Of a DNA stretch of 64,000 nt, positions 16,783 to 56,036 are shown piece by piece. Numbering within the stretch: the stretch's first letter is position 1; each line of letters begins with the position of its first letter. The stretch comes from Meandrina meandrites (Eukaryota; Cnidaria; Anthozoa; Scleractinia; Meandrinidae): the NCBI GenBank assembly GCA_963693305.1, contig OY855913.1, positions 20,280,015 to 20,344,014 on the forward strand, written 5' to 3'. Position numbers and translations under genes: made by a program. The notes under the pieces are model-generated. The model was not told the origin of the DNA. It saw only the letters and a program-made list of their open reading frames with translations, and made no database searches.

Positions 16783-19700
16783 CTAGTGTCGTCCCGACAT
16801 CTCCTCCACAAATGCTCGCGTTCTCTCTTCCATCCGCGTCCACACGTCATCTCCTGGTTGGAATAGCGGTTTCCTCATGTCCATCCAGACCAGGAACCGG
16901 CCTAAAGAATCTAAGTGTCGCGCTGGCGGATTCTGCGCTAAACGATGATACTCACGTTCCAAAGCACGAAGCTTGTTGAGGACATCCTGCTTCTCTGCCA
17001 CCATGTCGACGGCGTCCGAAAAAAATCTGTCAGAAGAAAATATTTATTTTAAAAACACCACAAATCCCTCCTTCATTTATCTTCAAATAATTGTCGAAGG
17101 TTTACTGGGGCTATGGCATATTTTACGTTGTGTGAAACATGGTTTGCCATATCTCGGTAAAAGTAAGTAGTTAATAAGTGCCTGTTGTGAAAGTGAGGAT
17201 TTTGTGGGTATATTGGGTTGATCTGAAACTTTGAGGAAACCAGAAAAATAATCAACGGCAAGCTGACGTTTGCCGTTTGTCGTACAAAGCAGGGTTAAAG
17301 GAGCTCTGTCACGATTTTGCAGATTTCTGGTCAAAACTGTTCTGAAATTAGTGGTAGGTAACTTAACCCATGAAAATCATTTCCTTTGAACATCTAAAGG
17401 AAGATGTAACCTTAATATGTGGGTAGAAATCTAACTGCGGCTATAAATGTCGACTTTTTGGAGACGTGCGGAAACAACTTGAAAAGTTTCGCTAAACTTT
17501 TCAAGTTGCAATCCATTTCCATCTTAGCCATCTGCAGCTAAAGAAGCTTGTTAACAGTTTCGGTGCTCTAAATATATAGCAATTCTTAATGAAAATGGAC
17601 TTTTATTTTTTGGTTTCCTTGGACACAAATACATATTTTGGCTGTTAGAATATATTTTGGCTGTTAAATATATATATTTGGCTGTTAAAATCCATGACAA
17701 AGCCGCTTTAAGTGACTAAAATGTTCCGATGTCAGACAGATATGTCCAGGATTGAACAATTACAAGATGCACGTTCGTTATGATAGGCATCACAAAGTGT
17801 CCTCACTGACAAACATTCACCGAAACACACATAGTTCTGTCAAATATGAAGTAATATGAAAATGTAAAGAAAAAATAATCAAACATAAAGTACCTAAAGA
17901 TTAAACAATACTTGCGTTAAATCCTGGACATGAGCGATGCCAGACAGACATTCAGATCAGTATAACAAAGAAGTAAAAATCCAGGTACAAGTATCCGTCA
18001 AGCACCTGGTAATTACTGCTGGTCAATTCAGAGAAAAAATAGGGAACCCAAAGGGTACATGTGTGGGATATAATGCTGCAACTCATCTGTAGAACTCATT
18101 TGCATTAACGGACTTACAACCCGATCGCATTAGTGTGCGATACCACAGGTATCCCACACAAAAACCACAAGTACTCCGAAAAATGTCGCATCAACTTTTA
18201 CAATTAGGTAAATGAAACCATACTGTGTGACCACCATTCAAATGAAAGCTATTGATTAGTTCTTTCTTGTGGCGGTGCAGTGGGAATTTGGTTTCGAATT
18301 TTAACTTTATTAGTTAAATCAAGATGCTCTGCTTTAATACCTGTTTAAATAAACGCACTCGTCACACGACGGGCCGTACAGAGCAGCGTACTTCATGAAG
18401 ATGGCGTCCACTCGTGCCACCAGATCGTTGCTGTAAGTAGTGAAGTACTCGAGCATGTGCCTTCGCTCTTTTAACTTCTTTGCCTTCTCGGCTTGCTCCG
18501 CCGTCCCAAATAGAGATGGCATCTGCCTTTGTCCCCAGGTAGTGAAGCGATGGTGCAGAGAACTTCCTAACTGCCCAAAGAAGCCTTTTATCGCGTTCGG
18601 GATCACGACAAGCGGACTACGAGAAGAGTAGTCGAAGGGGGCGCTGCGGTATATGCACGGAGGAATCAGATCCTGATCCCAACTGACGAAGAACTCATCG
18701 CCATCAAGATCACCTCCGGAAGATTCATCGGCATGCGGTCGGCTCCCTCTGGTTGGAAACACGATGCAGTCGCTGAGGTAATCGTACTGAGGCCTGTTCT
18801 TGACGAGTTTAAGAACGCGAATGTCACCCGGGTAGTAGCATGGATTGCGAACGACCATTACCTCCTGAGCGGTTTGAAATTCCGCGAACTGCACTTCATC
18901 AAAAAGAGTGGGTTGAAAAACACACTGGCCATGCTCGAGCTCGTTGAACGGATCGCACGCGCCAAACACTATCCTCGACCTGGGAACCAGGACTCTCAGC
19001 TTGCATTTTGCATTCTGCGTTACACTGCCACCATTTCCTCCATCTGTGGCGTTGTCTTTCTGCATCTTTTTAATCTCTTTAGCACGAAGACTTTTGAGTT
19101 CTCTTTGTAGGCGTTGGCTTTGCAGGCTATATTCATGTAACCAGTTGACCAACTTGCCCTCGCCCTTAATACGTAAATAGTACTCGGTGGATGCTGCAGT
19201 GCCACAGAGTTCCCTGAGCATGCTGTGAAAGTCATTCTGTAGCCCTGTCAGATAACTGTGTTTGACTCCACTGTCGGCCAACAGCATGGTTATCTGTTTG
19301 TTAAGGTAGCCTATGGTGTAGGGTCGGGAACACTTTACAACGCCAAACGTCGTACACGTCTGGCGCATTCGTTCATCCGGAATTGTAAACTTCTGCATGG
19401 ACTTCCGGAATTGTACCTTCACCCGGTGTCCTAGTTGTTGATTGAGGATGAGCACGCCTTTAAAGCCCTGGTATCGGACTTGCACCACGCATGGCTTACC
19501 ATCAAGGCCGCGTATATCTTGTATCTCCTGCGCAAATGAATCTGACATGAAACCGCATCCGTCGGTGAAGATGTAGTTGTTGCGCTCGACATCCTCGATA
19601 ACAGTGTACTCGTGCTCGTTCAGGGAAATGCTCTGGCTAAACGTCGAGAACAGCAGTCCGATCCTCTTGGCGCGCTTGGCAGCTGTCTTGATTTTAGAAA

Positions 19701-20103
19701 ACTTGCCGAACTGCGCCAGCAGCTCGTAGATGTCTTCGTCCGAGGCATTCATCAGAGTACAAGTTCTCTCCTTGAGCTGCGAGTTGGAATGGCCCAGGAA
19801 GCGGTATATCGCGCCACTGAAGATGATTCCTCGCTTCAAGATCTCTTGCGAACAATCAGTGTCCGCGCCTCTTTCAGGACGAAAAGCCACTGTCATGAGC
19901 CTGTCGACCTCCTGTTGACCACGCGCAGATATGAGGTATTCCATGAACAGGTTTCCACCCTCCACCTTGTTATATTTCATTGGCGGTCGCACCAGTCTGC
20001 CGCGGATGTCCACGTGTTTCACGTACAAGGCTTTTTCCAAGTGACCAGCTGGAGGTGGTGTTATGAACTCGTCTGGTATGTAGTAAGGATCCATCGTGTC
20101 CAT
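16783..20103 (-). CDS. cellular RNA-dependent RNA polymerase with intact catalytic motif (RdRP gene 1)
   Basis: This is a eukaryotic RdRP of the EGO-1/RRF-1/RDR/QDE-1 type, which makes RNA on RNA templates in small-RNA silencing. Coding exons are 20103-18341 and 17026-16783 (TAG stop), giving 668 residues. The donor AACAG|GTATTA and acceptor TTCTTCTGACAG join phase 2 in frame and restore the family's C..L..(F)S.AVD pattern. Motifs in order: FLGHSNSQLK (102-111), FTDGCGFMS (about 179-187), LNKQ (267-270), VRNPCYYPGDIRVL, then SGGDLDGDEFFVSWD with the metal-binding Asp residues 465, 467 and 469. A pyrimidine-rich tract and CAG at 20109-20107 sit just before the ATG, so at least one upstream exon exists, non-coding or short. 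The frame can be read further upstream to 20190, but that part is intron. It is short for the family because it lacks a long N-terminal region. Confidence 0.92.
17295..17711. mobile_element. hairpin MITE, TTAAAGGGRCAGT family, copy C, in the RdRP gene 1 intron
   Basis: The ends TTAAAGGAGCTCTGTCACGATTT and AAAATCCATGACAAAGCCGCTTTAA are degenerate inverted repeats. The centre (about 17471-17506) is a hairpin, AACTTGAAAAGTTT-CGCT-AAACTTTTCAAGTT. It lies inside the 1.3-kb intron of RdRP gene 1. Confidence 0.7.
17712..18340. other. rest of the RdRP gene 1 intron
   Basis: AT-rich intron sequence next to the donor site at 18340-18339 (minus strand). Nothing further recognised. Confidence 0.5.
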
Positions 20104-20389
20104 TTTCTGCATGGCGAAGGAAGAGCAAAGAACGTGAGAAATGAAAAACGTTAAGTGAGGGTTCTGAGGAGGTGGGGGAATAAATCCCATTTTCCCAGCC
20201 CAAATTGTTCCATAATACCAGGTCCAGCCTATGTTTTGCCCAAATCCTAGTCCATTCTCGATTTTCCTGTTTGTGATAAGCAGTCACGGTGACCCAGATC
20301 CCACTTTGCCAGTGATAAAATTGGTAAATCCCGGTTCCCATTTTACACTATCAGGCCCGTGTCATGTGTCACTTGGACCAAATTGCACC

Positions 20390-20650
20390 AACGGCCGGAG
20401 CTTATCCCGGTTTCTGTATCAAAAAGGTATTTTCTTTATGAAACAACCTGGAGTAGTGGTACTCCAACCTCCCCCAACCCCCAATGTTAGTCTAACGACC
20501 AAGTTATACCTCCAACCCCCCACCCGTGCAGCGTTTTTATCAGTTTGCCTAAACATTTCGTCGGTTCCGAACCTCCTGGATGGAGTGTGGCACTGTAAGG
20601 GTGAACTGACTTGCCGAAGAACACAACACAATGAGCCCGGCGAACGCTCG
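20390..20650 (-). mobile_element. tRNA-derived SINE, degenerate copy
   Basis: It aligns with the SINE at 37277-37588 in the same orientation. Both have GGCCGGAGCTTATCCCGGTTT at one end and CTTGCC(G/C)AAGAACACAAC near the other. The tRNA-like head is poorly preserved. Confidence 0.6.
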
Positions 20651-20982
20651 ATGAGCTAAACATCAGCAGGAACATCGTCAGCAGTAATAATATCCTGCCA
20701 TAAGGCCGCCCCGAAATAATTAGAGGTGTATCCAAGTTCGAAATCAAGAAATTAATCCCAGATTGTCCTTCGCAAATATATCGAAAGCAAGCCAATCTCA
20801 GCCGACAAGCGAAGGTAGATAAATCTAAGTATCTGAAATTTCCGTAGTTAGGTACTGGCTACATCATCAAAAGTGGTTTTCTCCCCAAGAAAGCTTAGGT
20901 TTCGGGTGTTTCCTTGTAATTTGATATCAACAGTCGAAATGTGCGGATTAATTTGCTGCATGTATGCCAATGTCACTAACAA

Positions 20983-21292
20983 GGCATGTACTAAAACCCG
21001 AAACAACCAAACGAAACGAGCGAAACCACCGAAATGACCGAACCGAAACCGTCGAATGAACCGAAACGGCCGAAACGAGCGAAACGAAACAAAATTACCG
21101 AAACAAGGAAAACCATTACTATTATTGAGAGCTAACCGTAAACAGGCTAACCTGGGATTTTTTTCAGGCTAACCTGGGCGATATTCAGGCTAACTGGAGG
21201 GCTATTTAGGCTAACCTGAGTGCAAGGTACACTCCGGCTGTTTTGGTTGTGTCGGCGGTTTCGTTTCGTTGTTTCGGGTTTTGGTACATGCC
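20983..21292. mobile_element. TIR element with 9-bp target duplication (MULE-like), CCGAAAC-rich
   Basis: The end GGCATGTACTAAAACCCGAA is repeated in inverse at the right (TTCGGGTTTTGGTACATGCC). CACTAACAA flanks it directly on both sides (20974-20982 and 21293-21301). A 9-bp duplication is typical of Mutator-like elements. The inside is a degenerate CCGAAAC array (21000-21110) followed by four loose copies of AGGCTAACCTGGG (21142-21222). It has no coding capacity. Confidence 0.75.
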
Positions 21293-22582: not shown

Positions 22583-22860
22583 TGGTTCCCTAGTTCTCTG
22601 GTTCTCTAGTTCTCTGGTTCTTGTGGTTCTCTGGTTCTTGTGGTTCTCTGGTTCTCTGGTTCTTGTGGTTCTCTGGTTCTTGTGGTTCTCTGGTTCTTGT
22701 GGTTCTCGTGGTTCTCTGGTTCTTGTGGTTCTCTGGTTCTTGTGATTCTCGTGGTTCTCTGGTTCTTGTGGTTCTCGTGGTTCTCTGGTTCTTGTGGTTC
22801 TCGTGGTTCTCTGGTTCTTGTGGTTCTCGTGGTTCTCGTGCTTCTTCTCGTTGTTCTCTA
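22583..22860. repeat. minisatellite GGTTCTTGTGGTTCTCT, left arm
   Basis: An array of 12- to 17-bp units made of GGTTCTTGT, GGTTCTCGT and GGTTCTCTG. Long frames through it give only REP/QEP/NHK-type repeats and are not genes. The inverted counterpart is at 26125-26555. Confidence 0.9.
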
Positions 22861-23044
22861 GTTATTGTGGGTCTGGATCTCGCGTGGTTCTCGCACGTGC
22901 ACCGCCATTTTGAATGTCGAGAGGACCCTGGGACGAGGTTACGCGACATGAGAGCGAGGCTAGAGTTGACTCGTGTTTGAGCGTGGAGAGAGATTACAGT
23001 GAGGATTCGGCAATTTGCTCGTCTTTTTTCGCATTTTTCGCAAA

Positions 23045-23327: not shown

Positions 23328-23611
23328 GAGAGGTTTTTAATATGCAATGTTTACAAAACTTTTGTTTACATGTTTCTAATCACTGTCTGAAGTTGTTGAT
23401 AATGTTTTACATCAAATAATGCTCTACTGTTGACAAGTTTTCAGTGAAATAAATATCTCAAATCAGGAATTATTCACAATTTTGCGAACTGTTTTTAATT
23501 TGTTATTTTTCAGACAGGCATTTTTTTCATATTTTTATAAGAGTATAAACAACAGAGTTGCTTTTAGGTAAAGTTATATAGTTAATTAAGGTTTTAATAT
23601 TATCTCATAAA

Positions 23612-25944: not shown

Positions 25945-26420
25945 CGAGCAAATTGCCGAATCCTCACTGTAATCTCTCCCCACGCTCTCAAACACGAGTC
26001 AACTCTAGCCTCGCTCTCATGTCGCGTAACCTCGTCCCAGGGTCCTCTCGACATTCAAAATGGCGGTGCACGTGCGAGAACCACGCGAGATCCAGACCCA
26101 CAATAACTAGAGAACCACGAGAAGAAGCACGAGAACCACGAGAACCACAAGAACCAGAGAACCACGAGAACCACAAGAACCAGAGAACCACGAGAACCAC
26201 AAGAACCACAAGAACCAGAGAACCACAGAGCAAATTGCCGAATCCTCACTGTAATCTCTCTCCACGCTCTCAAACACGAGTCAACTCTAGCCTCGCTCTC
26301 ATGTCGCGTAACCTCGTCCCAGGGTCCTCTCGACATTCAAAATGGCGGTGCACGTGCGAGAACCACGCGAGATCCAGACCCACAATAACTAGAGAACCAC
26401 GAGAAGAAGCACGAGAACCA
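25945..26420. repeat. internal tandem duplication of the foldback right arm
   Basis: A roughly 190-bp segment starting GAGCAAATTGCCGAATCC is present at about 25945-26130 and again at about 26228-26420, with the minisatellite between. The left arm has one copy (22865-23025). This explains the unequal arm lengths. Confidence 0.85.
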
Positions 26421-26633
26421 CGAGAACCACAAGAACCAGAGAACCACAAGAACCAGAGAACCACGAGAACCACAAGAAACAGAGAACCACAAGAACCAGA
26501 GAACCACAGAACCAGAGAACCACAAGAACCAGAGAACTAGAGAACCAGAGAACTAGGGAACCATATGAAGTCAAATAGTACGCGACTTATGACGTCAGCT
26601 GTGGCTATTACACCGGGGATCAGCCCCCAATTA

Positions 26634-28521: not shown

Positions 28522-30605
28522 CTAAACGACGCTCTTCTGAGTTTCACGTAGCATTCGCTCAACAAAGTCTTTGGCTTCCTTGTCAATCTTCTTCCATATC
28601 TCATTTCCAGGGCGCTGCACTCGTTTTAGACTGCCTATGGACATTCGGAACGGCCTCGTGGTTTGGGTTGGGCGTCTTTCCTTGCGATGCTCACTTGTGT
28701 CTTTTACGTCTTCGTCGTTTCGCGAATTAGACGATACTGAACTTGTTGATGATCGTCTTGAAGTGCCAATAGACTGCCGGGATGGCCTGGTGATTTCGGT
28801 TGGGCTTTCCTCGTCCGAATATTCACTTGCGTCTTCTTCATCTTGTTCGTTTCGTGGCCGACCCGAGAATAAAGCTGAACTTATCGACGGCTTCATTTGA
28901 CCGAGCTCTTTCCGCAAGGCACCAATATCTTCAGGGAAGTTGGCTGCTTTATACAGCATCTTGCTCAGCTGTCGGCATGGTTTTGATGATGGGCCCAAGG
29001 CTGCTGCACATTTCATGTATTCTCCTTCAATCATCTTCGGTATTTCATCAGAGCATGTGGCGAAGTACTCCAGCATTTCTTGTCGATCTTTCAATTCTTT
29101 GCTCCGGTGGTCCTTCTTGATCTTCTCTAATGCCTTTGAAACTGATCTGCCTGAGGCCTCACGTAATTTAGCTACCACTGTGGCCGAGTAATCACACGCT
29201 TTCTCTTTTACACTTGGAATGAGATTCTTATCCCAGCTGACGAAGAACTTGCTTCCACTCAAGTCCCCACCGAAACATTCAAACGCGTGAGGGCGTGGAC
29301 CTTTGACAGGCAGCACCAGACAGTCCCTCAGGTTCTCGTACCCTTCCTTTTCACCCGTCAGTTTCAGCACACGTATGTCTCCAGGATGGTAACATGGCCC
29401 TCGCGTCACCACAAACTTCTGGCCGGTAGGAAAACTCCTTGCTTCGTCATCAGGCATTGTGGGATTAAAGTAGCACTCTCCGTACTTCAGCTTGTTGTAA
29501 GGATCGCAAACAGCGAACACTACTCGGGACTCGGGGACGAGAATTCTCGTGTATGCCGCCTTCACCATCTCATCTAGTTCTTGTTTTCTTAAAACTTTCA
29601 AACGTTTTTTCATGTCGCCATCGATACCTTTGTCTCCAATTTCTTGCAAAAGACCGAATTCTCCTTTGAGACGCAGGAAATACTCTGCGGTTTCTTTGCA
29701 CATGCCCTCCAACAACTCATGGTAGCCTGTCTGCAAGGCCTCTAGGTTCTGTGCAGACACTCCTCTATCAGCGAGAAGCAGCAACATTCGAGTGTCAAGG
29801 TATCCATTGATGTAAGGGCGGGAATAATCCACGACATCAGCAAAGTTTAGATCTGCATGCATGTTCAGCATGTTCTCATCCGGTGTGAGGAATTTTTGCA
29901 TTGACTCGTGGAACTGCACTTTAACGCCTCTCAAATCTTCTTTGAGTACCAGCATACCCTCAATGCCTCGATAACGCACTTGGACAGCACTGGGTGGTCA
30001 TCCAGCTCGAAGATTCGTTGTACTTCGGTAGAGAATTCCGGAGACATAAATCCACATCCATCGGTGAAAGTGTAAGATCTGAAAACTTCATCTTTTACAT
30101 CTGGAACAACTCTGTACTCCTTTGCATTCAATGGCACGGTTTTGTTGAGCGTCGAGAAGAGCATGCCAATTTTTCTAGCCCGCTTTCCTAAGTTTTTCTC
30201 TTCCACGAAGTCGCCAAACTGCGCCAAAAGCTCGCGAATTTCTTCATGCGTGGCTCTCATTAAGTAACAGGATTTTTTCTTCAGTTGATCATCCGAGTGA
30301 CCAAGGAAGAAGTATGAACGTTGACGACAAAATATTCCTCTTTCCAGAATGCTTTTGCGGAAACTATTCGCTTCGTCATCCGGCGTAATGTCAAAGGTTA
30401 ACTTCATAAGCTTCTGGTTGAAGTCTGGCCCGTCACGTTTTCTCAGATACTCCGTCAATAAAGTGCTCTGGAGCTTTTCGTGATCAACTTTGTAGTCATT
30501 TTTACCAGTGCCATAAAATTGCACGTGTATTATGTAGGTTTCTCCTTCGGCGACCCTTGGTGGGTCGCTGGCTGCTGATAAGTCTACGCAGAAATAGTAG
30601 GCCAT
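28522..30605 (-). pseudogene. RdRP-like gene 2: catalytic Asp residues lost, one frameshift
   Basis: The frame starts at MAYYFCVDLSA (30605) and breaks near 29994, where one T present in genes 3 and 4 (GGGTTGG there, GGGTGG here) is missing. The RdRP sequence resumes in the next frame to the stop at 28522. Family motifs remain: FLGHSDDQLK, FTDGCGFMS, SRPYINGYL, RGPCYHPGDIRVL and FFVSWD. The metal site (29265-29251) is DLSGS instead of D-x-D-G-D, and LN(R/K)Q is LDTR. A Ser/Glu-rich linker before the C-terminal helix contains a repeat of about 45 residues (ESPTEITRPSRQSIG, then RRPTQTTRPFRMSIG). It has no coding intron, unlike gene 1. A single-base lesion could also be a sequencing error. With or without it, polymerase activity is not expected. 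Confidence 0.88.
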
Positions 30606-30633
30606 TGGATATGAAAAGATGGACTGAGGAAAT

Positions 30634-31917
30634 CCTGTAGAACAACAGATTTAGTACAACTTCAATATTAATAATAGGTCACTCAGTCAAAGGTAGGGGC
30701 AAGAAAGCCGTAGTCAAGGTTCACAATCTCTCAGGTAAAGAACGCTACTTGGACGCGGTGTGAACACGGTTTAAACGCGGTGGGAGATTGAAAACTCCGA
30801 AAGAAATTAAAAGGTCCGTATTGTCATGGTTTTCTCAGCGTTCAGGTCTGGTAAGAAGACTGAGTACTGGTCAAGCTAATTAGAACCAAAGGTTGAAAAC
30901 TGAAACGATCACCGTCGAAATATGTCTCGATGCGGGATTTGTAATAAATCTTATCAGTGAAAAGAACAAGTTGCATGCACAGCGGAAATGGTCTAAAAAT
31001 AGTTCAAACTGCCTACAGCCAGTAAAGTCTAATTTTTGGCGCAATTGTGTGGTCCTGTATGGTAGTTCAAGTATAATGGAAAGTGAAAAGTCCTTTGAAT
31101 TGACTATAAACATATTTCAGAGAAATTTAATAGGGCGGAAGTTTACAACATCACAATATCGCAAATCAAGGGAAAAACCCCCGAATCGACATGAACGCTT
31201 ATGTTGTCGTAGACCGAGACGGAAGGCTGTCGCAAGTTTCTGATGCATTCTAAATTGATTTTAAAGCAATAAAAACGCATTGTTTAAAATCGGAATCCGC
31301 TAACAGTCTTCTTTTTGGTCTCGAGAGAAGGAAATGAAGGCTACAGCTGATATGACTGGAAAGATTTGTCGCTGCAAAATTTATAACTGAACCAAATTTA
31401 TAGTTATTTATTGCTACAATGCATCGAAAATAACTGGACTGCCGCGCTAAGAATTTCATCCAGTTGACTTTGTGTTCTGGTCAGCACAAAGGGAAAACTT
31501 TCCGAAGGCGAAACCCATTCCTACGTAATCACTGCATGGCGAAAATCCGAAGTATGTTTTGGGTTTCCAAAGAACTGCAGTCGTAAACAAAACTTGCAAC
31601 GTCATCACTTTCGGTTTGCACCATTGTATTGATGCATCGAACACGAATATGCAAGTTATTAAATAAACCAATTTATATTGAAATAGAGGCCTATCAATTT
31701 CGCATCGAAAAACAACTACAGTTAGGCAGATGAACTACCGAATCCTGTGAATTCCACCAGATAAAAAGGGAGACAACGGTACCTAGCCTACGAACTGGAG
31801 GAATATACAGCGTCGCAACCGGAATACTATAAAACGGTAATATTTTAATGTGCGATCGAGCCTGACAAGAACTGAACTTTTCCTTGCTTGACTGGCAAAC
31901 AGTTAATTTATCTTACC
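30634..31917 (-). other. 5' UTR intron boundaries of RdRP gene 2
   Basis: On the minus strand the donor CACTTAAG|GTAAGATAA ends a non-coding exon at 31917. The acceptor TGTTCTACAG precedes the exon starting at 30634, 29 nt before the ATG. The equivalent sites in gene 4 are GTTGAG|GTAAGA (50551) and TATCCTGCAG (exon from 47706). Gene 3 keeps the acceptor (exon from 40135). This confirms the chosen start codons. Confidence 0.6.
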
Positions 31918-35038: not shown

Positions 35039-35645
35039 TTTCCCTTTTGAGTTCCCTTTAAAGCTCCATTTTAAGTTCCCTTATGAGTTCCTTTTAAATT
35101 TGAGTTCCCTTTTGAGTTCCCTTTCGAGTTCCCTTTGAGTTCCCTTTGAGTTCCTTTTAAGTTTCCTTTTGAGTTCCCTTTTGAGTTCCCTTTTGAATTC
35201 CTTTTAAAGGGACACTGTCACGAGCATAGCTTCAAAAATTCAACAGTCCAAAAACATGTTTACACCACTGGAAACCCATTAACAGCGGTCAAGTTTTCTT
35301 AAAATTACTATACCAGTGCACTGAAGCTAAATATAGAGTGATATCACTGTGATACCATCGGGAGCTTTTAATCGCAACTTAAAAAAGTCGGCCTGACTTT
35401 TTTAAGTTCTGTCCTTGTGGTTTGGAAAAATTGATGAAAACTATTTACGGTCACCCTCTTCTTTAAACAATTTGCTAGATATCCTTCTCTTTACGTTATA
35501 GGAGCATTTCCTGCATGGTTGAAAGTACTTAGTCGTAATTTTGGTGCCATTTTACTAAAAATGCCAAAAATGTCCGTGACAGTGTCCCTTTAAGTTCCCT
35601 TTGAGTTCCCTTTTGAGTTCTCTCTCGAGTTCCGTTTTCAGTTCC
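35039..35645. repeat. GAGTTCCCTTTT minisatellite, split by a MITE
   Basis: A 12-bp unit (TTGAGTTCCCTT) is repeated from 35039 to about 35213 and resumes at 35594-35645 after the hairpin MITE. The MITE must have inserted into an existing array. Confidence 0.85.
35214..35593. mobile_element. hairpin MITE, TTAAAGGGRCAGT family, copy D (best preserved)
   Basis: The perfect ends TTAAAGGGACACTGTCACG and CGTGACAGTGTCCCTTTAA include TTAA. The central hairpin is at about 35375-35407: AACTTAAAAAAGTC-GGCCT-GACTTTTTTAAGTT. It inserted into the surrounding minisatellite, which confirms mobility. Confidence 0.85.
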
Positions 35646-38151: not shown

Positions 38152-40077
38152 CTAGTTTGTTTCACGACGCATTCGTTCAACGAATTCTTCGGCTTTCTTG
38201 TCAATCTTCTTCCATATCTCATCACCATGACGAGGCGATCGTCTCAGTGAACGGCGGCGCATAGAACGTCGCAACTGCCCGATGTTTGATTCTGGTGTAC
38301 GTTGGATTTCCACATATTCATTTGAGATACCTCCTTCGTCCACACAGGAACTTGACAGCTTCATTTGCTCAAGCCTTTTTTGCAAGTTAACCGTTTCTTC
38401 GGTGAAGTTGGCTGCTTGGTATAGCATCTTGCTCAGTTGCCGGCATTGTTTTGATGATGGGCCCAAGGCCGTGGCGCATTTCATGTATTCCGCTTCAATC
38501 TTCCTGGGTATTTCATCTGAGAATGTGGCGAAGTACCGGAGCATTTCTTCTCGATCTTTCAAATGTCTGTTCCGGTGGTCTCGTCTGAATTTCTCAGACA
38601 GATACGACACTGACCTGGCCGATGCACCGCGAATTTTAGCTGCAATTGTCGGCGAGTAATCGCACGGTGCTTCTTTCGTACTTGGAATGAGATCGGTATC
38701 CCAGCTTACAAAGAACCGATTCCCTCCCAGATCTCCTTCGAAGCATTCGAACGCGCCAGGGTAGGGGTCATTTGCGGACAGCACTAAACAGTCCCGCAGG
38801 TTTTCGTACTTCTCGTACCCAGGCTTCTCGTGGGTGAGTTTCAAAACTTGCACATCTCCTGGATGGTAGCAGGGGTTCCGCACGACGACAAGGTTTTCTG
38901 CAGCAGTAAAATCAGTGTCATCATCAGGTATCGTGGGCCTGAAGTAACACTCGCCAGGCTTCAATTTTCCGTACGGATCATATACAGCAAACACGACACG
39001 AGACTTGGGGACCAGGATTCTTGTATGTGCTAGTTTCTTCATCTCGTCCAACTCTTGTTTCAGTAAGAGCTTCAAGTGCTCCTTTGTGCGATCATCAACT
39101 CCATTCTCTTTGATGTCTTCCAGAGACTGGACTTCCCCTCTTAAGCGCAGAAAGTACTCGGCCGCCGCCGTATTTTTGTTCATGTTTTCCAATAACTCGT
39201 AGTAACCCGACTGCAATTCTTGCAGGTGCTCAGCGGAAACTCCTGCCTCAGCCAGAAGCATCACCATTCGAGTATCAAGATATCCATTAAGGTAAGGGCG
39301 GGAATGATCTATAACATCAGCGAAGTTGAAATCTTCAGACATGTTCTCATCAGGGGTGACGAATTTCTTCATTGAGTTGTGGAACTGCACTTTAACTTCC
39401 GTCAAATCTTCTTTGAGTACCAGCATACCCTCGATGCCGCGATAACGTACTTGGACAGCGCTAGGTTGATAATCGAGCTCGAAGATTTTTTGTACTTCGG
39501 ACGTGAATTCTTGGGACATGAAACCACATCCATCCGGCAAGGTGTGTGATCTGAAAACTCTTCGTTTTGTATCTGGTTCGACTTTGTATTCGGTCGCAGC
39601 CAAGTTCAGACGTTTGTTTAGCGTCGAGAAGAGCATTCCAATTTTCCTTGCGCGCTTTCCTAAGTTTCGCTCCTCCAGAAAGTCACCAAACTGCGCCAAT
39701 AGCTCGTGAATTTTTTCATGCGAGGCACTTATCAAATAGCACGACCTTTTCTTCAGTTGATTTTCCGAGTGACCAAGAAAGAAGAACACTCGCTGGCGAC
39801 AAAATATGCCTCTCTCCAGAACGCTTCTGCAAAACAGATTCGTTTCGTCAGCTGGCGTGATATTAAATGTCAACTTCATGAGCTTCTGGTGAAAATCAGG
39901 ACCGTCACGTTGTCTCAGGTACTCTGTTAGTAAAGAGTTCTCGAGCTTTTCGTAATCAACTTTGTAGTCATCTCGACCAGTGCCATGAAATTCCACATGT
40001 ATTATGCAAACTTCGTCTTCGGTGCCTGTAGGTGGAACTTTTCCGGCAGAAAGCTCTATGCACAGATGGTAGGCCAT
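38152..40077 (-). CDS. RdRP-like protein, catalytic motif DLGGN (RdRP gene 3)
   Basis: One uninterrupted frame of 641 residues starts at MAYHLCIELSA. An in-frame TAA lies between a conserved acceptor (exon from 40135) and the ATG, so the start is firm. The RdRP fold motifs are present: FLGHSENQLK, DGCGFMS, IQVRY-like VQVRYRGIEGMLVL, SRPYLNGYLDTR, ILVPKSRVVFAVYDPY, VRNPCYHPGDVQVL and FFVSWDTDLIP. The metal-binding D-x-D-G-D is D-L-G-G-N (residues 449-453), so two of three Asp are gone. LN(R/K)Q is LDTR, and AVD is AAN. Catalysis is not expected. An Arg/Ser-rich linker precedes the conserved C-terminal helix (EIWKKIDKKAEEFVERM). The intact length suggests a retained non-polymerase role, such as binding RNA or the active paralogue. 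Confidence 0.9.
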   Translation of the reverse strand: MAYHLCIELSAGKVPPTGTEDEVCIIHVEFHGTGRDDYKVDYEKLENSLLTEYLRQRDGPDFHQKLMKLTFNITPADETNLFCRSVLERGIFCRQRVFFFLGHSENQLKKRSCYLISASHEKIHELLAQFGDFLEERNLGKRARKIGMLFSTLNKRLNLAATEYKVEPDTKRRVFRSHTLPDGCGFMSQEFTSEVQKIFELDYQPSAVQVRYRGIEGMLVLKEDLTEVKVQFHNSMKKFVTPDENMSEDFNFADVIDHSRPYLNGYLDTRMVMLLAEAGVSAEHLQELQSGYYELLENMNKNTAAAEYFLRLRGEVQSLEDIKENGVDDRTKEHLKLLLKQELDEMKKLAHTRILVPKSRVVFAVYDPYGKLKPGECYFRPTIPDDDTDFTAAENLVVVRNPCYHPGDVQVLKLTHEKPGYEKYENLRDCLVLSANDPYPGAFECFEGDLGGNRFFVSWDTDLIPSTKEAPCDYSPTIAAKIRGASARSVSYLSEKFRRDHRNRHLKDREEMLRYFATFSDEIPRKIEAEYMKCATALGPSSKQCRQLSKMLYQAANFTEETVNLQKRLEQMKLSSSCVDEGGISNEYVEIQRTPESNIGQLRRSMRRRSLRRSPRHGDEIWKKIDKKAEEFVERMRRETN

Positions 40078-43532: not shown

Positions 43533-44641
43533 ATTTCGAAAATTTTTACCTCTGAATCACTTCCATGGAAAAGCTATCTTAAATATCTGCTTAAACCTTT
43601 TGGTGGATTTTTCTTTCTTCACGGCAACTATAACATTAATGACTATGAGATCAAGTCGATTTTTTATTCAGAAATGCTGCAGTGGTGGTCTGAATTTCGC
43701 TCAAAATTTGCATCGGATACTATATCGTTCGACTCGATTATTTGGAATAACTGCAATATAAGAATAGACGGTAAGCCGATCTGTTATCTTAACTATGTGA
43801 ATGCTGGGGTGATTCTTGTCAGTGATTTAATGTTTTCTCTGAACAATATCGATTCTTTTAACGCAATAAAGAACAAGGGACTGAGAGATACAAATTACTT
43901 GACTTGGACTGGAGTTCGATGTTCTGTACCTAAGCATTTAAGGAATCTCAATGTTGATAGAAACGTTCTAAGAATGCTGGAATTTAAATATGGTGACAAA
44001 AGCTTAGATCCCATTTCGAGCAAGAGTAGAAATTTTTACGCCCTTCTCATTCAAGACAAAGCCAAACACTCTAGAGGTTTCTGCAAAATTATGTCAAACT
44101 TTAGCCTTAGTGAGGAAGAAACTCGCAAGGCATTTTTATTACCAAAGACTGTTGCTTTTGAAACATTTGTACAATGTTTTCAAGTCAAGATTCTGAACGA
44201 CATTCTGTTCTTAAATTCCCGATTAGCAAATATCGGGAGGACTCCCAGTGACCTATGTACGTTCTGCCAAGCCCACCAAGAAACATTGGAACATTTCTTT
44301 TATCAGTGTCCTTACTCAATAGACTTTTGGACTAAGTTTGAAAACTTTTGGCTAAGAATAACTAAAGAGCAAATAAAACTTGATTATAACAATATCATAT
44401 TAGGAATTTTGGATCAGAAATTTAGCTTACTCAATTATTTTATTATTCTGGGTAAACTTTATTTATGGAAGTGTCTTAAGAATAATCAAATCCCTTTTTC
44501 TTACCTTTTGAAGAAATAGTCAAGGAAAAATATAAAACTGAAAAACTTATAGCCTCTCAAAACAACTTGGCCTTAAAAAAATTCCGGGCTAAATGGGACC
44601 CTGTATTGAACAGCAATCTAGACGTCTTTGTTAAGGATTAA
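43533..44641 (+). pseudogene. LINE (non-LTR retrotransposon) ORF2 C-terminal remnant
   Basis: The frame runs from WKSYLKYLLKPFGG through a region typical of sequence C-terminal to a LINE reverse transcriptase. It ends in the zinc-knuckle pattern C-x2-C-x7-H-x4-C (CTFCQAHQETLEHFFYQC). The frame stops at 44519. The expected continuation (EEIVKEKYKTEK ... FRAKWDPVL) lies in the next frame to 44641, so one base changed in the T-run near 44493. A TAG at 43530-43532 interrupts it upstream, and no reverse transcriptase core is in range. It is 5'-truncated and dead, as most LINE copies are. Confidence 0.8.
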
Positions 44642-45708: not shown

Positions 45709-47664
45709 TCATATTATGACCCTGTTAAATTCACGTTGCTTCTGCTTAACAAACTCTTCGGCTCTCATCCTGATCTCCTCGAATACCGTGTTACCAGGAC
45801 CACGCGGTCGTCTGAATCGGCCAGTGAAAAGGTGGGGCTGTCTGATGGTTTCATTTGTTCTTTCGTTTTCTGCGTTTCCTCGCTCTGCATTCATTAGAAG
45901 AGGAGACTCTTCACTGAGCGTAGCTGAATCACGGGAAAGCACTTCGGTTGTAGCGCGAGGTTCCATTTTCTTCAGCTTTAACCACTTCTTTTCCAATCCA
46001 ACTCTATCTTCAGTCAAATTGACTGCTTGGTAAAGCATCTTGCTGAGTTTTCGGCACTCTCTCGATGAAGGGCCAAAGGCAGCTGCATACTTCATGTACG
46101 TCTTGTCAATCTTGTCAGTTAAATCATCTGTGAAGTCAGCAAAGTACTCTCGCATTTCTTTCCTGCTTCCTTCATTTCTCCTGTCAGGGCTGAGTCTGAA
46201 CTTGGGCCGTAAGCAAGAGGGTAGAAATGCGGCCATGGCTTTGCGAACTCGAGCCGTCTCTTTGGAGGGATAAACACAGGGGCTTTTCACCTTTTTTGGA
46301 ATGAGGTCATCATCCCAGCTGACAAAGAACTTGTCGCCACCCAAGTACCCACCGGAACATTCAAACGCGTGAGGGCGTGGGCCTTTAACTGGCAGCACCA
46401 GGCAGTCCCTCAGGTTCTCGTACCCTTCCTTTCTATCCGTCAGTTTCAACACGCGCACGTCTCCAGGATGGTAACATGGTTCTCGCATCACGAGAAACTG
46501 TTGACCAGTAAGAAAATTGCTTGCTTCATCATCCGGCCTTGTGGGATTGAAGTAGCACTCTCCGTACCTCAGCTTGTTGTAAGGATCGCAAACAGCGAAC
46601 ACCACTCGGGACTCGGGAACGAGAATTTTCGTGTATGCAACTGCTTTTTCCATCTCGTCCAGTTCTTGTTTTCGGAAAGCTTTTAAAGCCGTTTTGGTGG
46701 GGTTGCTTTTCCCTTTTAGGCGTAGAAAGCTTTCAGCAGACGCCGTATTTTTGCAAATGTCTTCCAATAATGCGTAATAATCCGACTGCAACTCTTTGAG
46801 ATGCTCAGCAGAAGTTCCTGCCTCGGCCAGTAACATGATCATTCGGTTGTCAAGGTATCCGTTGACATAAGGGCGGGAGCATGAGTAATCCACAACATCT
46901 GCGAAGTCGAAATCTTCAGGCATGTTCTCATCAGGGGTGACGAATTTCTTCATTGAGTTGTGGAACTGCACTTTAACATCCGTCAAATCTTCTTTGAGTA
47001 CCAGCATACCCTCGATGCCTCGATAGCGTACCTGGACAGAGCTGGGTTGGTAATCGAGCTTCAAGATTTCTTGTACTTCAGCAGCGAATTCCGGAGACAT
47101 AAATCCACATCCATCGGTGTAAGTGTATGATCTGAAAACTCCGCGCTTTATATCTGGAACGATTTTGTACTCATTTCTTGCCAATGGAACGGTTTTGTTT
47201 AGCGTCGAGAAGAGCATTCCGATTTTTCTAGCACGCTTTGCTAGGTTTTGCTCTTCAAGAAAGTCGCCAAACTGCGCCAAACGCTCGGGGATTTCTTCAT
47301 ATCTGGCTCTAGATCTCATCAAGTAACAGGATTTTTTCTTCAGTTGATCATCCGAGTGACCGAGGAAGTAGTACGTACCTTTTACACAAAATATCCCCTT
47401 TTCCAGAGTATCTTTGCAGAAGCGATTCACTCCATCGGTAGGCGTCATCTCGAATGTCAGCTTCATAAGCTTCTGGTTGAAGTCTGCCCTGTCACGTTTT
47501 TTCAGGTATTCTGTCAGTAGAGAAGGCTCGAGCTCTTCAACATCAACGTTGTATTTATCTCGGTTAGGTTCACGGAATTTCACATGAATTATGCTGTTTT
47601 CACTTTCAGCGTCCCTATCTGGGATGTTGGCGGCTGTTAAGTCTATGCAGACCTGGTAGGCCAT
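45709..47664 (-). CDS. RdRP-like protein, catalytic motif YLGGD (RdRP gene 4)
   Basis: The protein has 651 residues from MAYQVCIDLTA. The open frame reaches 47766, but the conserved acceptor TATCCTGCAG lies between (exon from 47706) and the paralogues start at this ATG, so I place the start at 47664. Motifs: FLGHSDDQLK, YTDGCGFMS, VQVRYRGIEGMLVL, SRPYVNGYLDNR, ILVPESRVVFAVCDPY, REPCYHPGDVRVL and FFVSWDDDLIP. The metal site (46347-46333, residues 440-444) is Y-L-G-G-D. Only the last Asp remains, in a different pattern from genes 2 and 3. The variable linker and C-terminal helix (TVFEEIRMRAEEFVKQK) follow. No coding intron. A pseudo-polymerase is the best reading. Confidence 0.9.
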   Translation of the reverse strand: MAYQVCIDLTAANIPDRDAESENSIIHVKFREPNRDKYNVDVEELEPSLLTEYLKKRDRADFNQKLMKLTFEMTPTDGVNRFCKDTLEKGIFCVKGTYYFLGHSDDQLKKKSCYLMRSRARYEEIPERLAQFGDFLEEQNLAKRARKIGMLFSTLNKTVPLARNEYKIVPDIKRGVFRSYTYTDGCGFMSPEFAAEVQEILKLDYQPSSVQVRYRGIEGMLVLKEDLTDVKVQFHNSMKKFVTPDENMPEDFDFADVVDYSCSRPYVNGYLDNRMIMLLAEAGTSAEHLKELQSDYYALLEDICKNTASAESFLRLKGKSNPTKTALKAFRKQELDEMEKAVAYTKILVPESRVVFAVCDPYNKLRYGECYFNPTRPDDEASNFLTGQQFLVMREPCYHPGDVRVLKLTDRKEGYENLRDCLVLPVKGPRPHAFECSGGYLGGDKFFVSWDDDLIPKKVKSPCVYPSKETARVRKAMAAFLPSCLRPKFRLSPDRRNEGSRKEMREYFADFTDDLTDKIDKTYMKYAAAFGPSSRECRKLSKMLYQAVNLTEDRVGLEKKWLKLKKMEPRATTEVLSRDSATLSEESPLLMNAERGNAENERTNETIRQPHLFTGRFRRPRGPGNTVFEEIRMRAEEFVKQKQREFNRVII

Positions 47665-49413: not shown

Positions 49414-49417
<4 letters not shown>

Positions 49418-49454: not shown

Positions 49455-49455
<1 letters not shown>

Positions 49456-51671: not shown

Positions 51672-52250
51672 TCTCATTATATATGCAATGTCAGTCATGT
51701 CAACAACCTCTATTTCCTAGAAACTTGCTCATGTTTTCTAGGAATTCAGACTGCAACACCATTTTGCAAGAGGCTTTAATTGCGAGATTCAAAATTTTTT
51801 TCGCAATCAAATGTCCATAACACCATTCCAACAATGGTAACAGCAAAATGGCAGCACAAAATTAAGCTCCCGGCCACGCAAAGTTATGAAAAGAAAAGAA
51901 ATAACACAATAGTTAAATATGTTTTTCAAGCTAATCCGGGGATTCCCCTGGTTTCAGTTTCTGTCCAGACTTCATATATGCAAATAAATTGACAGATTCT
52001 TGGGCGCTGTACGCAAAAGCAACCACCAAGACAAACAGTACAGTGCTCTGTCGGCCTTCCGTGGTGTTTTTTAGCCCAAAGCTAGCTTTAACTATGACCA
52101 TTTGTGTTTAACTAAAGGAGAAAAGAGCCGGATATGTAGAAGACAACAGCATCAGGTATGTCAACAGTCTGACGATGTCACTATCACTGAATTCAAAATG
52201 AAGTATTGCGACGCCACACATGCAAACATGCACGTATATAAATACAGACA
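51672..52250 (+). repeat. 570-bp direct repeat, left copy (possible 5' exon of RdRP gene 5)
   Basis: It matches 59782-60337 in direct orientation over long blocks such as AACCTCTATTTCCTAGA and TAGTGCTCTGTCGGCCTTCCG-like sequence. Both copies end in a strong splice donor, GCATCAG|GTATGTCAAC (52155 here). The left copy lies about 2 kb upstream of RdRP gene 5 on the same strand, and a CTTTCATTAG acceptor occurs at about 54108-54117. It could be that gene's promoter and first exon. Confidence 0.55.
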
Positions 52251-54143
52251 TAAAACATAAGTGTCAGTAAGTATTCATTGCATGAATTTCTGTCGATAAA
52301 GCTTTCAATCCAAGCATTTTTCAGCCATCCTTAGCTTTGTGAACTATCCTCTGATAACAACGCATGTTGCTGCATTGAAAGTTTCAATATTGTTGTTTAG
52401 AAAGCACTTTTATATACCTTGCACCATAAGCAATTTGAGCAATTTTAATACTTCATTAGTGGGTAATGCAATGGAAAGAGTACTTTCCACTAAACGTGAA
52501 ATCTTTCTTGATTGAGACCTATTGGCAGAACGGAACAGATACACGGCGTTTACATGTAAATTGAAAGTATTACCCGAACGGTGTCTGCTCACATCGATGG
52601 TCGATGTTTGACCGTTTATTATCAATTTCCACTATTGTAAATTTCTTCAGAAACTCATATTTAATTCCTCATACTGCAGCGCCGGCTTAGTATTTTGGAT
52701 GGTGCTTTCAAGTTAAAGTTCACTAAAATCGAAATAATTGTGTATATAGACGCGGGCAGGAAAAGAGTGGGGGGGGGGGGGGGGGGGGGGACTAGAAGAG
52801 CTTAGAAGTGAAGAGTTATTTTGATGGAACGGGGATAATAAAATGTACTTGTCGCCATGTGCGTCATGGCAGATGATAGATTGTTTTGCAATCTTTACCC
52901 TTTAGTGTTGTAAAGCGCTTTTGGACGCATTTTGTGGCAGCGCGCTCTAGCAGAATTGTTTCTGTGTGGAACAGTTTGACTTGTCAAAGCTGGCTGATAA
53001 GTTCAGCAATTTGATTGGTTGCTGTAAAATTTCCACGCCAACACTGACGTCATTAAAAGTATATTTAGCTTCAGTGTAATTAATGTTCTTGGCTTTGAAC
53101 CAAAGTAGTGAAATTCGTATAAGTGAGTCGGTTTAAAGTGAAAGCAAGCACTTCACACAATTGAGAATTGATAAATGACAGTGAAAACGATCAGTGGACA
53201 ACACTTATTCAATGTTCTGAGAGGAGTCAAGACACATTTAAAACAGAAAGTCTGGAGCTTTCTTTTCGGAATTCTAACTGAACTGTGTCAAATATCAGGT
53301 GCGGAAACAACTTCTAAACGATTCCTGAATGATAAAAGCGGTTCACCAGTGCTAGTACTGTGTATTCCTGGTGAGCCTAATAAGAAGCCTCCTAAAGAAG
53401 CTAGGAATTAACTGACTGAATTAACTTCAGCTTACTTTTATTCCACTAATAAACAAATTAAATTAGCAATGCTTAAAATGCTGATCCAATCAGACGGGCA
53501 AGGTTATTTATGTGACTCCGTGATGGGCTATTTTTTGTGGTCCGTTAATAGTGGGAAACCCTTTTTGTGTATCGTAATTTAAGTATACATACATCATGAA
53601 TGGTGTATTGCCAATAATTGTGAAAATGATTTTCTGAAATAGAAAATTTAGTTTCGTGACTTTGCGAGAGACAGCACTTTCCACACACCTCTCTCCCTCT
53701 CTGCGAACTAAAATGCTTCAAAGACCCCTCTCCCTTTCAAATTGCAATGGCTTCCAAACGACCCGGAAGAAAGTGCTGTAACTGCTGTCTGTCTAATACT
53801 AACGGGGGACGACGATCCCCACCCTTTCGAATGTGGGTCAGTCGATAAGGCTATAGAACACAAACTGTCTAACACAGGCATTTTTAAAGTTTACTTGTAT
53901 TTGCTCCGTCTGGTACGACTTTGGCTACTGGGGATTTAAAAATACAATACGTATACCGCTGGTACCGCAAGTGTTAAGAATTTAATTCAAAGCAAGATTC
54001 TGATACCTGTAAGAGATCCCTCCGACATTTCAGATAGGAGTTATAGTACTCACTGTACATGGGAAGGGTTAAAATTCTGCCACTTATTTCTGGATTATAT
54101 TTGATACTTTCATTAGGTCTTACATGAAGTAAAGTGGCAAGAC
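52251..54143. other. region upstream of RdRP gene 5
   Basis: It contains a run of about 20 G at 52770-52790. It also has a promoter-like cluster with GATTGGTTG (inverted CCAAT), TGACGTCAT (53045-53053, a CRE-type site) and AGTATATTTAG just after. No protein-coding gene was recognised. Confidence 0.4.
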
Positions 54144-56036
54144 ATGGCTGGACCTTACCTTGTGCCGTGTACGAAGCCACTGAAATGTCCATCTGACGAG
54201 AAATTGTACGTGAAACATGTTGTCCTTAACAAGGAGAATGATCCCCGAGGACAAGTAAAAGAGGTTGAAAACTCTTTGATGATCAATCAGCTATTTACCG
54301 ACGGAAGAAAACAAAGTGTGTGGGACAAACTTTTGACGGTTGAGTTTTCATCATATTCTGAAGATGAAATAAAAGGAATATTAAGTAGAGATATCGAGTT
54401 CGACGGCTCGCAATATTGCTTTCTGGGGTTTTCTGAGTCTCAGCTGAGAAACAAAACTTGCTTTCTAATCAAGGAAACCGAGAAACAAATTCGCGACAGG
54501 CGAGCGAAGTTTGGCAACTTTAGAAACGATATCCCCTTTGCCAATCGAGCAGCTACAGTTCAACACATGTTTGAACCATTCGAGAAAAGCTTGCAGTTAG
54601 CTGAAGGCGAGTTTAAATTTGAGCACCATCCCAGCAATAATGTGCCAAGTGGGTTTATGTCACCCGAACTTGCTGAAACAATCAAGAAAACATGCAGTCT
54701 TGCTAAGCCACCCAGTGTCGTACAAGTCATCTGTCCAGGATTTTCTGGTAAGCTTGTGCTGTCGGATGAGATATGTGGCAGAACGAGTGAGGATAGTTTT
54801 CCCTCGAGTAGAATTAAGGCCCTGTTTAAACTTCCAGATGCAGCAATTAACTGTGGTAACTCACTAACGATGGGCGTTGTTGACTATGTCAAACCGTACA
54901 ACATGGGCTACTTGAATGTTTACACTGTGATGTTTTTGAAAGAAATGGGTGTAACACGTGATTATTTCTTGAAACTCCAGAGAGATTATTATGAAGTATT
55001 GGAAAAGGTCGGAGCTGCCGATTTGACATTTGTCAAGTACTTTCTTCGACAGAATGGGAGAGAAGACCTTTTAAGAGCAATAGGAAACGAAATAACGAAT
55101 GACGCAAAAGGAAAGATCTACGAGATTAAAGATGACGAAATCGAAAGCATGAAAAATGGCACCGAGCCCGAGCTCAGGGTTCTTGTAAGCATGTCAAGGG
55201 AAGTTTTTGGAGTTGAGGATCCTTACAAAGAACTCAAATCAGGTGAATGTGTTTTTGTTCCTTGCGTGGACTGTTTAAATGATCGAGAAAAAGAACTGTT
55301 TTATTCCGCAAAACAGGTTCTTGTAATTCCACAACCATGCTTCACGTCTACAGATATTCAAGTGCTCAAGCTGGTGCGCGACAAGGAAGAGTACGAAAAC
55401 CTCGAAGACTGCCTTGTTTTACCGTCGCAACCAGAAGCTCAAGTCAGTGTTGCCAACAAGTATTTTGTGTGCTGGGATATAAATCTCATGCCTCAGAAAT
55501 CAGATTCATTTCTCGATCTCATTGCCAACGTTTGGCCTGTGCTTTGCGGTCAGATTTTGAAGACATTACCTGCCTTCTCCAGCCTTCCTTGCTCAAGAGA
55601 AAAAACACCGACAAGACACAGCTTTGAAGGCTTTGAAGAAATGAAAACAAGTCAGAGAGATCGAAAGGTCGCCAGCAAGCTTCACGAAAATGGTTCATTT
55701 CAGGACGAGCTTAAGGAGTATTTCGCCACCTTCAAAAGCAACGATGGTCTGGTTTCTCGTGCAAAGTCACTCTTCGAAGCGTTTGCTGCTCTGCGTGGTC
55801 CGTCGTGCTCCGAATGTAAAAAACTCGGGGGATACCTGTCGCCGAGTTTTGACTGGAATGCTAAGAGGAACGAAGCAGAGAACTATCTTGCAAAGCTTGA
55901 TGAGAAATATGAGAAGATCAGCCCCGACCTGGAATCTACCCAAGATTCTCCCGTTGCTACTCAATCTTCAACTCCACAGCCAGTTTGGAGAGAAATGACC
56001 GAAATTTTGCGTGAATTTATTGCGCAGAACACTTAG
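54144..56036 (+). CDS. RdRP-like protein with the catalytic loop missing (RdRP gene 5)
   Basis: An uninterrupted frame of 630 residues on the strand opposite genes 1-4. RdRP kinship is visible in LYVKHVV, FLGFSESQLRNKTC, SGFMSPELAE, VKPYNMGYLN, LRVLVSMSREVFGVEDPY, PQPCFTSTDIQVLKL, NLEDCLVLP and YFVCWDINLMP. Between LVLP and YFVCWD, where the SGGD-x-D-G-D loop should be, only a short unrelated stretch (about 55431-55460) remains, so no metal-binding Asp is present. LN(R/K)Q is LNVY. GPSCSECKKLGG is closer to gene 1 than to genes 2-4. A variable linker and the C-terminal helix (WREMTEILREFIAQNT) complete the layout. It cannot be an RNA polymerase by the known mechanism. The open frame argues for another retained function. 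Confidence 0.85.
   Translation: MAGPYLVPCTKPLKCPSDEKLYVKHVVLNKENDPRGQVKEVENSLMINQLFTDGRKQSVWDKLLTVEFSSYSEDEIKGILSRDIEFDGSQYCFLGFSESQLRNKTCFLIKETEKQIRDRRAKFGNFRNDIPFANRAATVQHMFEPFEKSLQLAEGEFKFEHHPSNNVPSGFMSPELAETIKKTCSLAKPPSVVQVICPGFSGKLVLSDEICGRTSEDSFPSSRIKALFKLPDAAINCGNSLTMGVVDYVKPYNMGYLNVYTVMFLKEMGVTRDYFLKLQRDYYEVLEKVGAADLTFVKYFLRQNGREDLLRAIGNEITNDAKGKIYEIKDDEIESMKNGTEPELRVLVSMSREVFGVEDPYKELKSGECVFVPCVDCLNDREKELFYSAKQVLVIPQPCFTSTDIQVLKLVRDKEEYENLEDCLVLPSQPEAQVSVANKYFVCWDINLMPQKSDSFLDLIANVWPVLCGQILKTLPAFSSLPCSREKTPTRHSFEGFEEMKTSQRDRKVASKLHENGSFQDELKEYFATFKSNDGLVSRAKSLFEAFAALRGPSCSECKKLGGYLSPSFDWNAKRNEAENYLAKLDEKYEKISPDLESTQDSPVATQSSTPQPVWREMTEILREFIAQNT

Follow-up and report, generated by a model that had tools for sequence, protein, structure and literature searches.

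Why does a coral carry a row of RdRP homologues in which a single member keeps its catalytic center, and are the others decaying duplicates or proteins with a job of their own? This question is raised by a 64-kb stretch of the Meandrina meandrites genome (551 Mb), hereafter the window. A first, sequence-only reading had described a cluster of five cellular RdRP homologues; these were found at their positions, but the window holds only part of an array of 13 units that spans ~150 kb and extends beyond it. The PF05183 profile cut-off was passed by all six pieces queried from genes 1 to 5 (E-values of 5e-97 for gene 1, 1e-51 and 2e-22 for the two pieces of gene 2, 3e-77 for gene 3, 5e-84 for gene 4, and 9e-41 for gene 5). 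The active site is intact in gene 1 only and lost in the other 12 units of the array, and all eight RdRP genes found outside the array in the same genome carry DLDGD. The dead genes are intronless, a hint of retrocopy, yet two RdRPs of the same genome, C1 and C6, are likewise single open frames. Piwi/Argonaute matches occur at about five places in this genome.

Table 1. RdRP features in the window, in positions of the window.
Feature	Position	Strand	Description
Gene 1, exon 1	18341..20112	-	likely start codon to donor AG/GTATTA; exon ends counted by hand
Gene 1, motifs	GFKGV 19467-19453; LNKQ 19305-19294; DLDGD 18711-18697	-	in exon 1
Gene 1, exon 2	16783..17026	-	C-terminal helix region and stop
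Gene 2, N-terminal piece	29931..30650	-	frame differs from C-terminal piece; frameshift between
Gene 2, C-terminal piece	28522..29997	-	dead; GIEGM 29967-29953, DLSGS 29265-29251
Gene 3	38152..40077	-	641 aa; intact frame, dead; GIEGM 39438-39424, DLGGN 38733-38719; clade A
Gene 4	45709..47664	-	intact frame, dead; GIEGM 47019-47005, YLGGD 46347-46333; clade A; start set at MAYQVC, another in-frame ATG upstream
Gene 5	54144..56036	+	630 aa; intact frame, dead; GFSGK 54738-54752; clade C
Gene 5, catalytic loop	VSVANK 55443-55460	+	shortened

The first reading had assigned DLDGD and LNKQ to gene 1 and the variants DLSGS, DLGGN, and YLGGD to genes 2, 3, and 4, with no such motif in gene 5; the four metal-site motifs lie exactly where they had been placed, and LNKQ is present in gene 1 (Table 1). 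The two exons of gene 1 add up, by count, to 671 aa, and the second exon is backed by five spliced relatives (P0126, P0132, P0133, P0137, and P0138) that all read YLNR/FFSDAVDM across the junction. All five catalytic residues are present in 23 of 23 rows of gene 1's clade. Gene 1 has a Nematostella vectensis relative (P0139, 66% identical, with DLDGD). Judged by sequence, gene 1 has no head domain, its exon 2 stopping past the corresponding helix; because this domain is missing, the prediction of activity is drawn from residue conservation, and on that ground we infer that gene 1 is a live RdRP. In genes 2 to 5, the LN(R/K)Q signature had been called lost, and the site indeed reads LDTR, LDTR, LDNR, and LNVY, respectively. 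The loop of gene 5 is eight residues shorter than that of gene 1 and contains no DxDGD. Gene 2 is frameshifted in this assembly, and the frames of genes 3 to 5 are open.

The dead genes form one clade that takes up 202 of the 246 rows of the tree (gene 2, itself outside the tree, was put in clade A by similarity). Had related species kept an intact DxDGD at this site, local decay in one coral would have been indicated; instead, the coral relatives are dead at the same site. A late, coral-only origin of the dead clade was rejected (AU test, p 1.5e-5, for a group that was defined after inspection of a tree with long branches), and, by the tree, the dead lineage appears to predate the split between corals and sea anemones. 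The active site may have been lost once or more than once, given that P0146 and P0147, which carry DLSGD, may or may not belong to the same loss (support 78/59). No named sea anemone contributed a dead relative to the matches listed, which for one of the searches were 120 of 198; the lineage may be dispensable in sea anemones, or the search may have missed it.

The loss of the active site in this clade goes beyond chance, as is evident from both the absence of any intact Asp triad (0 of 202 rows) and the excess of loss at catalytic columns. When 69 conserved columns were compared, the five catalytic ones were lost more than the other 64 (one-sided Mann-Whitney p 0.003, and again 0.003 on 42 thinned rows), with p values of 0.009, 0.005, 0.035, and 0.0003 for clades A, B, C, and D. 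The loss is also wider than catalysis, in that 3 of the 10 columns kept in less than 20% of the dead clade are catalytic. Two further positions are informative, which we take to be the barrel-1 lysines K743 and K767 of QDE-1, whose numbering was fitted to the alignment by one offset. The K743 lysine is kept in 0 of 202 dead rows versus 23 of 23 rows of gene 1's clade, and with both triad and first-barrel lysine gone, genes 2 to 5 are pseudo-polymerases, as the sequence-only reading had proposed. Could other residues, in an altered metal site, nonetheless support RNA synthesis by such proteins? Single Asp residues do persist in many members (D1007 in 41% of the dead clade overall, the last Asp in g4 and in 9 of 10 rows of clade D), but no row keeps four or five of the five catalytic residues, and clade C additionally lacks 8 to 11 loop residues in 67 of 67 rows. 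We give this explanation almost no credence.

The scaffold, on the other hand, is retained. Predicted models of two members, g3 and g5, preserve the two-barrel core fold and align with 535 and 505 residues of RDR2, respectively. The match runs to residue 970 of the 1133-residue RDR2 chain; in both proteins, most of the N-terminal region that precedes RDR2 residue ~275 is missing, as is the head after ~970. The five genes resemble RDR2/QDE-1-type eukaryotic RdRPs (PF05183) in the profile match of all of them and in the core of g3 and g5, and differ in that genes 2 to 5 have neither triad nor barrel-1 lysine. The pattern is that of a pseudoenzyme, with catalytic residues gone and scaffold residues kept, some noncatalytic columns being lost as well.

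A protein of this shape might bind RNA without copying it, as a sensor or chaperone, in the manner of the strand hybridization suggested for Paramecium RDR3. The retained fold and some basic residues would suit this role: R373 of g3 is found in 99% of the 202 rows, and the K767 position holds K in 77% and K or R in ~90%. Within first-barrel bounds that we chose, however, the net charge averages +6.2 for gene 1's clade and is lower in every dead clade, at -4.9 in A, +0.7 in B, -1.8 in C, and +0.1 in D, and the K743 position is Glu in 101 of 202 rows, which together weaken RNA or NTP contact at the first barrel. We regard RNA binding as doubtful, if the least improbable of the competing explanations. 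The Paramecium tetraurelia gene, RDR3, is needed together with RDR2 for transgene-induced silencing, was thought possibly catalytically dead by its authors, and was put forward as a possible mediator of strand hybridization (PMC4937312). It is alike, by description only, in being a divergent RdRP paralogue without the conserved residues, and differs in being a ciliate gene.

Open frames alone could mislead, if the array were a graveyard of RdRP duplicates that lose their active sites neutrally while some frames stay open by chance. Among the 12 dead units, four are broken (a frameshift in g2 and another in g11, stops in g7, and a truncation in g8), the pair g8-g10 shows an omega of 1.02 on few changes (dS 0.009), one piece of g11 has an omega of 0.66 (p 0.09 versus omega 1), and in young pairs that were split into thirds, single thirds were indistinguishable from omega 1. 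Against this, eight of the 12 dead units are whole, and whole dead pairs have a dN/dS of 0.24 to 0.53, similar to the 0.375 of an intact control, all computed from paralogues within one genome. Neutral copies simulated at four distances accumulated on average 2.8 to 22.5 stops, and the 202 clade rows, which span 572 to 730 aa after rows below 560 aa were dropped, have 45 near-invariant residues in common. An array of pseudogenes, with broken frames and omega near 1, does not describe the locus, where g8-g10 alone reach that value; likewise, local pseudogenization of the family was rejected by the dN/dS, the catalytic-column test, and the neutral simulation. The sequence-only reading had suspected a selected family and named a dN/dS near 1 as grounds to abandon the idea; whole dead pairs lie below 1, and the suspicion held. 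The dead family is an old, selected, and tandemly turning-over set of pseudo-polymerases, whose copies come and go through duplication and breakage, and no product of local decay. Decay is refuted for the family as a whole, for which we rate it highly improbable, and it may stand for g2, g7, g8, and g11.

The turnover raises another possibility, in which dead copies mimic the live RdRP and soak up viral silencing suppressors, and are duplicated and diversified as a result. Recent duplications (g10-g8, and g5-g9 with a dS of 0.077), a conserved fold in the predicted models, and an omega of ~0.5 in clades B and C, which amounts to moderate constraint, would be expected of such decoys. All whole dead pairs nonetheless remain below an omega of 1, and we know of no viral suppressor that targets cnidarian RdRPs, which counts against decoys. 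We hold them to be unlikely, a shade more so than RNA binding.

An RdRP shape that is kept under selection without its catalytic center suggests a nonenzymatic job, perhaps that of a noncatalytic partner or regulator in RNA silencing. The first reading had named RNA binding, scaffolding, and dominant regulation of the active paralogue as candidate jobs, all of which are conjectural. Our preferred reading, to which we assign a probability of roughly 0.45, is that an old pseudo-RdRP family, in tandem with a single live RdRP of the short form, supplies noncatalytic partners to the silencing machinery. Each dead protein would fold like an RdRP core and take the place of an RdRP in complexes with shared partners, which might be silencing cofactors, Argonaute/Dicer assemblies, or gene 1 itself, and the single live enzyme of the lineage would be tuned or targeted by its dead paralogues. 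Pseudokinases, which tune kinases, offer a comparison. A place at the interface of virus and host would also agree with the turnover of copies. A second formulation, in our estimate slightly less probable, has a fast-renewing coral family, rooted before the coral-anemone split, act as regulatory or scaffold subunits or as decoys in antiviral silencing, linked on one chromosome to a live short RdRP under their control.

Inactive-looking RdRPs beside active ones are already known, which makes the present kind only partly new, and the earlier statement that dead RdRPs beside live ones had not been described was too strong in view of amphioxus (PMC6396948) and Paramecium RDR3 (PMC4937312). Branchiostoma lanceolatum has six RdRP candidates, three with an intact DbDGD; truncations among them are possibly prediction defects, the genes were proposed to work outside RNAi, and the accessible part of that paper does not describe the inactive ones as a selected clade (PMC6396948). 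Nematostella has four RdRPs, three of which are raised by poly(I:C) (PMC12768352, PMC8476169), and because secondary siRNAs or amplification products were not detected there (PMC12768352), it is doubtful that the live enzyme serves amplification in that species. For Stylophora, eight RdRP candidate transcripts were mentioned with data not shown, and these cannot be allotted to either group, dead or live (PMC3962355). Within the open-license literature searched, we recognized no description of a dead RdRP clade in corals. The role of animal RdRPs outside nematodes is an open question despite their wide spread. If the second formulation is true, the family would be, to our knowledge, the first demonstrated case of a two-barrel RNA polymerase lineage turned purely noncatalytic. 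A clade that has kept its scaffold under selection from before the coral-anemone split onward, and has discarded its chemistry, implies that a protein with the shape of an RdRP can be of use even if it makes no RNA.

A profile search of the genome (551 Mb, 56 contigs) returned 44 matches to PF05183, and those on C11, the contig that holds the window at 20280015-20344014, form a single array that extends from gene 1 to ~164166 in window-style numbering, 100 kb beyond the window end. The ORF listing of 172,886 joined bases contained 13 RdRP units in this array (g1-g13), of which g1-g5 lie inside the window. Within the array, the active-site motif DLDGD occurs only in g1; it is present in 8/8 RdRP genes outside it (two on C1, one on C6, three on C3, and two on C12). 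The C1 pair, L020 (C1:65324942) and L021 (C1:66326706), consists of 981-aa single-frame live RdRPs that lie 1 Mb apart in opposite directions and are 99.7% identical, i.e., a recent duplication or an assembly duplicate; the RdRP on C6 is 95% identical.

RdRP units of the array and other features (window-style numbering; g6-g13 from the ORF listing)
Feature	Position	Strand	Site	Remark
g1	exons 20112-18341 + 17026-16783	-	DLDGD	671 aa
g2			DLSGS	
g3			DLGGN	
g4			YLGGD	
g5			VSVAN	
g6	70076-72061	+	DLGAS	
g7	75582-77598	-	RVGGD	broken
g8	91801-92889	+	VSVTS	363 aa
g9	105456-107411	+	VSVAN	
g10	132330-134264	+	VSVTS	
g11	143036-145055	+	GLGAS	two frames
g12	150723-152777	+	DLCAS	
g13	161977-164166	-	RVGGD	
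Reverse transcriptase remnant, LINE-type	43533-44519	+		between g3 and g4; zf-RVT, PF13966
Overlapping ORFs	61722-63230	-		tyrosine recombinase match; sub-threshold Dam match
ORF, 298 codons	13637-14533	-		Pfam match sub-threshold; coiled-coil-like by eye
Tandem repeats	9455-10145; 22583-22874; 25946-26553; 35040-35205			second and third between g1 and g2

The exon junction of gene 1 lies at the same joining place in five database relatives, which suggests an RNA origin for these spliced sequences. Two features retained by the C1 and C6 RdRPs, the head domain and the AKTG motif, have been lost in gene 1 and in the spliced members of its clade (AIDAAKTG in the C1 and C6 RdRPs versus AVDMVAEK), although all five catalytic residues are kept. 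The frames of genes 3, 4, and 5 are open, and gene 2 is split in two by a frameshift near 29960, which could be genuine or could stem from misassembly. Both tandem repeats between genes 1 and 2 contain a common unit and its complement (~9/17/26 bases), and the matches of the overlapping ORFs at 61722-63230 resemble those of DIRS-like retroelements.

Relatives were taken from three protein searches (264 proteins: the best 120 of 198 for gene 3, all of 71, and all of 87), the first two of which scored only the 7999 and 8000 candidates sharing most words. Among the best 120 of 198, the named gene 3 relatives were stony corals (Desmophyllum, Oculina, Orbicella, and Stylophora). The alignment comprised 246 rows, namely 235 of the 264 proteins (>=560 aa) and 11 own proteins, leaving out 29 shorter proteins, broken copies, and the near-duplicate C1b; some own proteins are doubled in it (P0001, P0049, P0091, P0183, and P0257 are dead own genes, P0121 is gene 1). 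DxDGD was found in 42/246 rows. In a FastTree phylogeny rooted on mostly fungal rows, 202 rows, 0 of them intact, formed one dead clade (lacking the Asp triad and the first-barrel lysine; support 1.0), adjoined by gene 1's clade (23/23 intact, support 0.998); the two formed one group with support 0.878.

The dead family has lost its catalytic residues and kept its fold, as modelled for g3 and g5. We set five catalytic positions by aligning QDE-1 to the profile, numbered K743, K767, D1007, D1009, and D1011, which fit the alignment with one offset. At the K743 position, K was found in 0/202 dead-clade rows (E in 101, S in 53, A in 26, Q in 17, and others), and retention was 3% for D1009, 14% for D1011, 41% for D1007, and 77% for K767; no row of this clade had four or five of the residues. 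All five were complete in 23/23 rows of gene 1's clade and in 19/21 remaining rows, the other two having gaps there. In clade C, the dead subgroup of gene 5, the catalytic loop was shorter by 8-11 residues in 67/67 rows. For 69 columns with >=90% conservation among the 44 rows outside the dead clade, median retention within it was 0.84, and loss was greater at the five catalytic columns than at the other 64 (p = 0.003, with the same value after thinning to 42 rows of <70% identity). The loss extends beyond the catalytic columns: ten were kept in <20% of the clade, three of them catalytic and one the Asn of LNKQ. At three positions, >=80% of the clade carries a different fixed residue: D in place of N in LNKQ (92%), L in place of F at g1 position 452 (90%), and L in place of M at g1 position 298 (81%).

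Selection acts on the dead family, which also undergoes turnover. Because K743 is missing in all its rows, we took divergence inside the clade as later than the loss, and we estimated omega (dN/dS) by pairwise codon likelihood for 19 pairs of paralogues of this genome, three of which, distant and with saturated dS, were set aside. In clade A, omega was 0.28 for g3-g4, 0.22 and 0.28 for g3 versus pieces of g2 (placed there by similarity), and 0.34 for g4 versus a g2 piece; further clade-internal values were 0.53 (g6-g12), 0.24 (g5-g9), 0.48 (g5-g10), 0.50 (g9-g10), and 0.37 (g13-g7), all with p <= 3.4e-4 against omega 1. The broken g11 pieces gave 0.47-0.66 against g6 and g12 (p 5e-4 to 0.09), and g8 gave 0.44 and 0.46 against g5 and g9 (p about 1e-4) and 1.02 against g10 (p = 0.98), where changes are very few (dS 0.009). 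When three pairs were divided into protein thirds, omega was <1 at p <0.05 in 7/9 stretches and not in 2/9. Intact controls gave 0.375 (C1a-C6) and 0.395 (C1b-C6), and C1a-C1b, with almost no changes, gave 1.0. Neutral simulation at four distances produced on average 22.5, 6.9, 6.8, and 2.8 stops per copy, with 5% of copies still open at the shortest distance.

In a tree of 58 selected rows, Nematostella, Exaiptasia, and Actinostola fell inside gene 1's clade (support 96/90), and a dead core of 34 rows fell outside it (87/67, not starred). A tree constrained to group the dead rows with the coral-type gene 1 rows, leaving those anemones outside, was rejected as 73.9 log units worse (AU p = 1.5e-5), in a test that, with long branches present, shares the model's pull. 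Among the matches listed, and with contigs equated by their length, relatives of gene 1 and of the dead genes shared a contig in 6/6 non-anemone contigs >60 kb, a count that takes in the window's own contig, Stylophora, and Desmophyllum and includes two fragmentary gene 1 relatives absent from the tree; they did so in 0/3 named anemone contigs among those matches. In Desmophyllum, the locus tags are near-consecutive: OS493_000813 (gene 1 like), 814, 815, 817, and 818.

Inactive-looking RdRPs alongside active ones have been published for amphioxus (PMC6396948) and Paramecium (PMC4937312); in searches of the open-licence literature we found no description of a large, monophyletic, selected, tandem dead RdRP family. 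Viral mimics are reported to elicit a response of RdRPs in cnidarians (PMC8476169), and heat in Stylophora to raise RdRPa1 and lower RdRPb1 (PMC12530282). In the first-barrel region, mean charge is +6.2 in gene 1's clade and lies between -4.9 and +0.7 in the dead subgroups, and we therefore weigh protein partnership above RNA binding for the dead proteins, which would have a non-catalytic role in RNA silencing.
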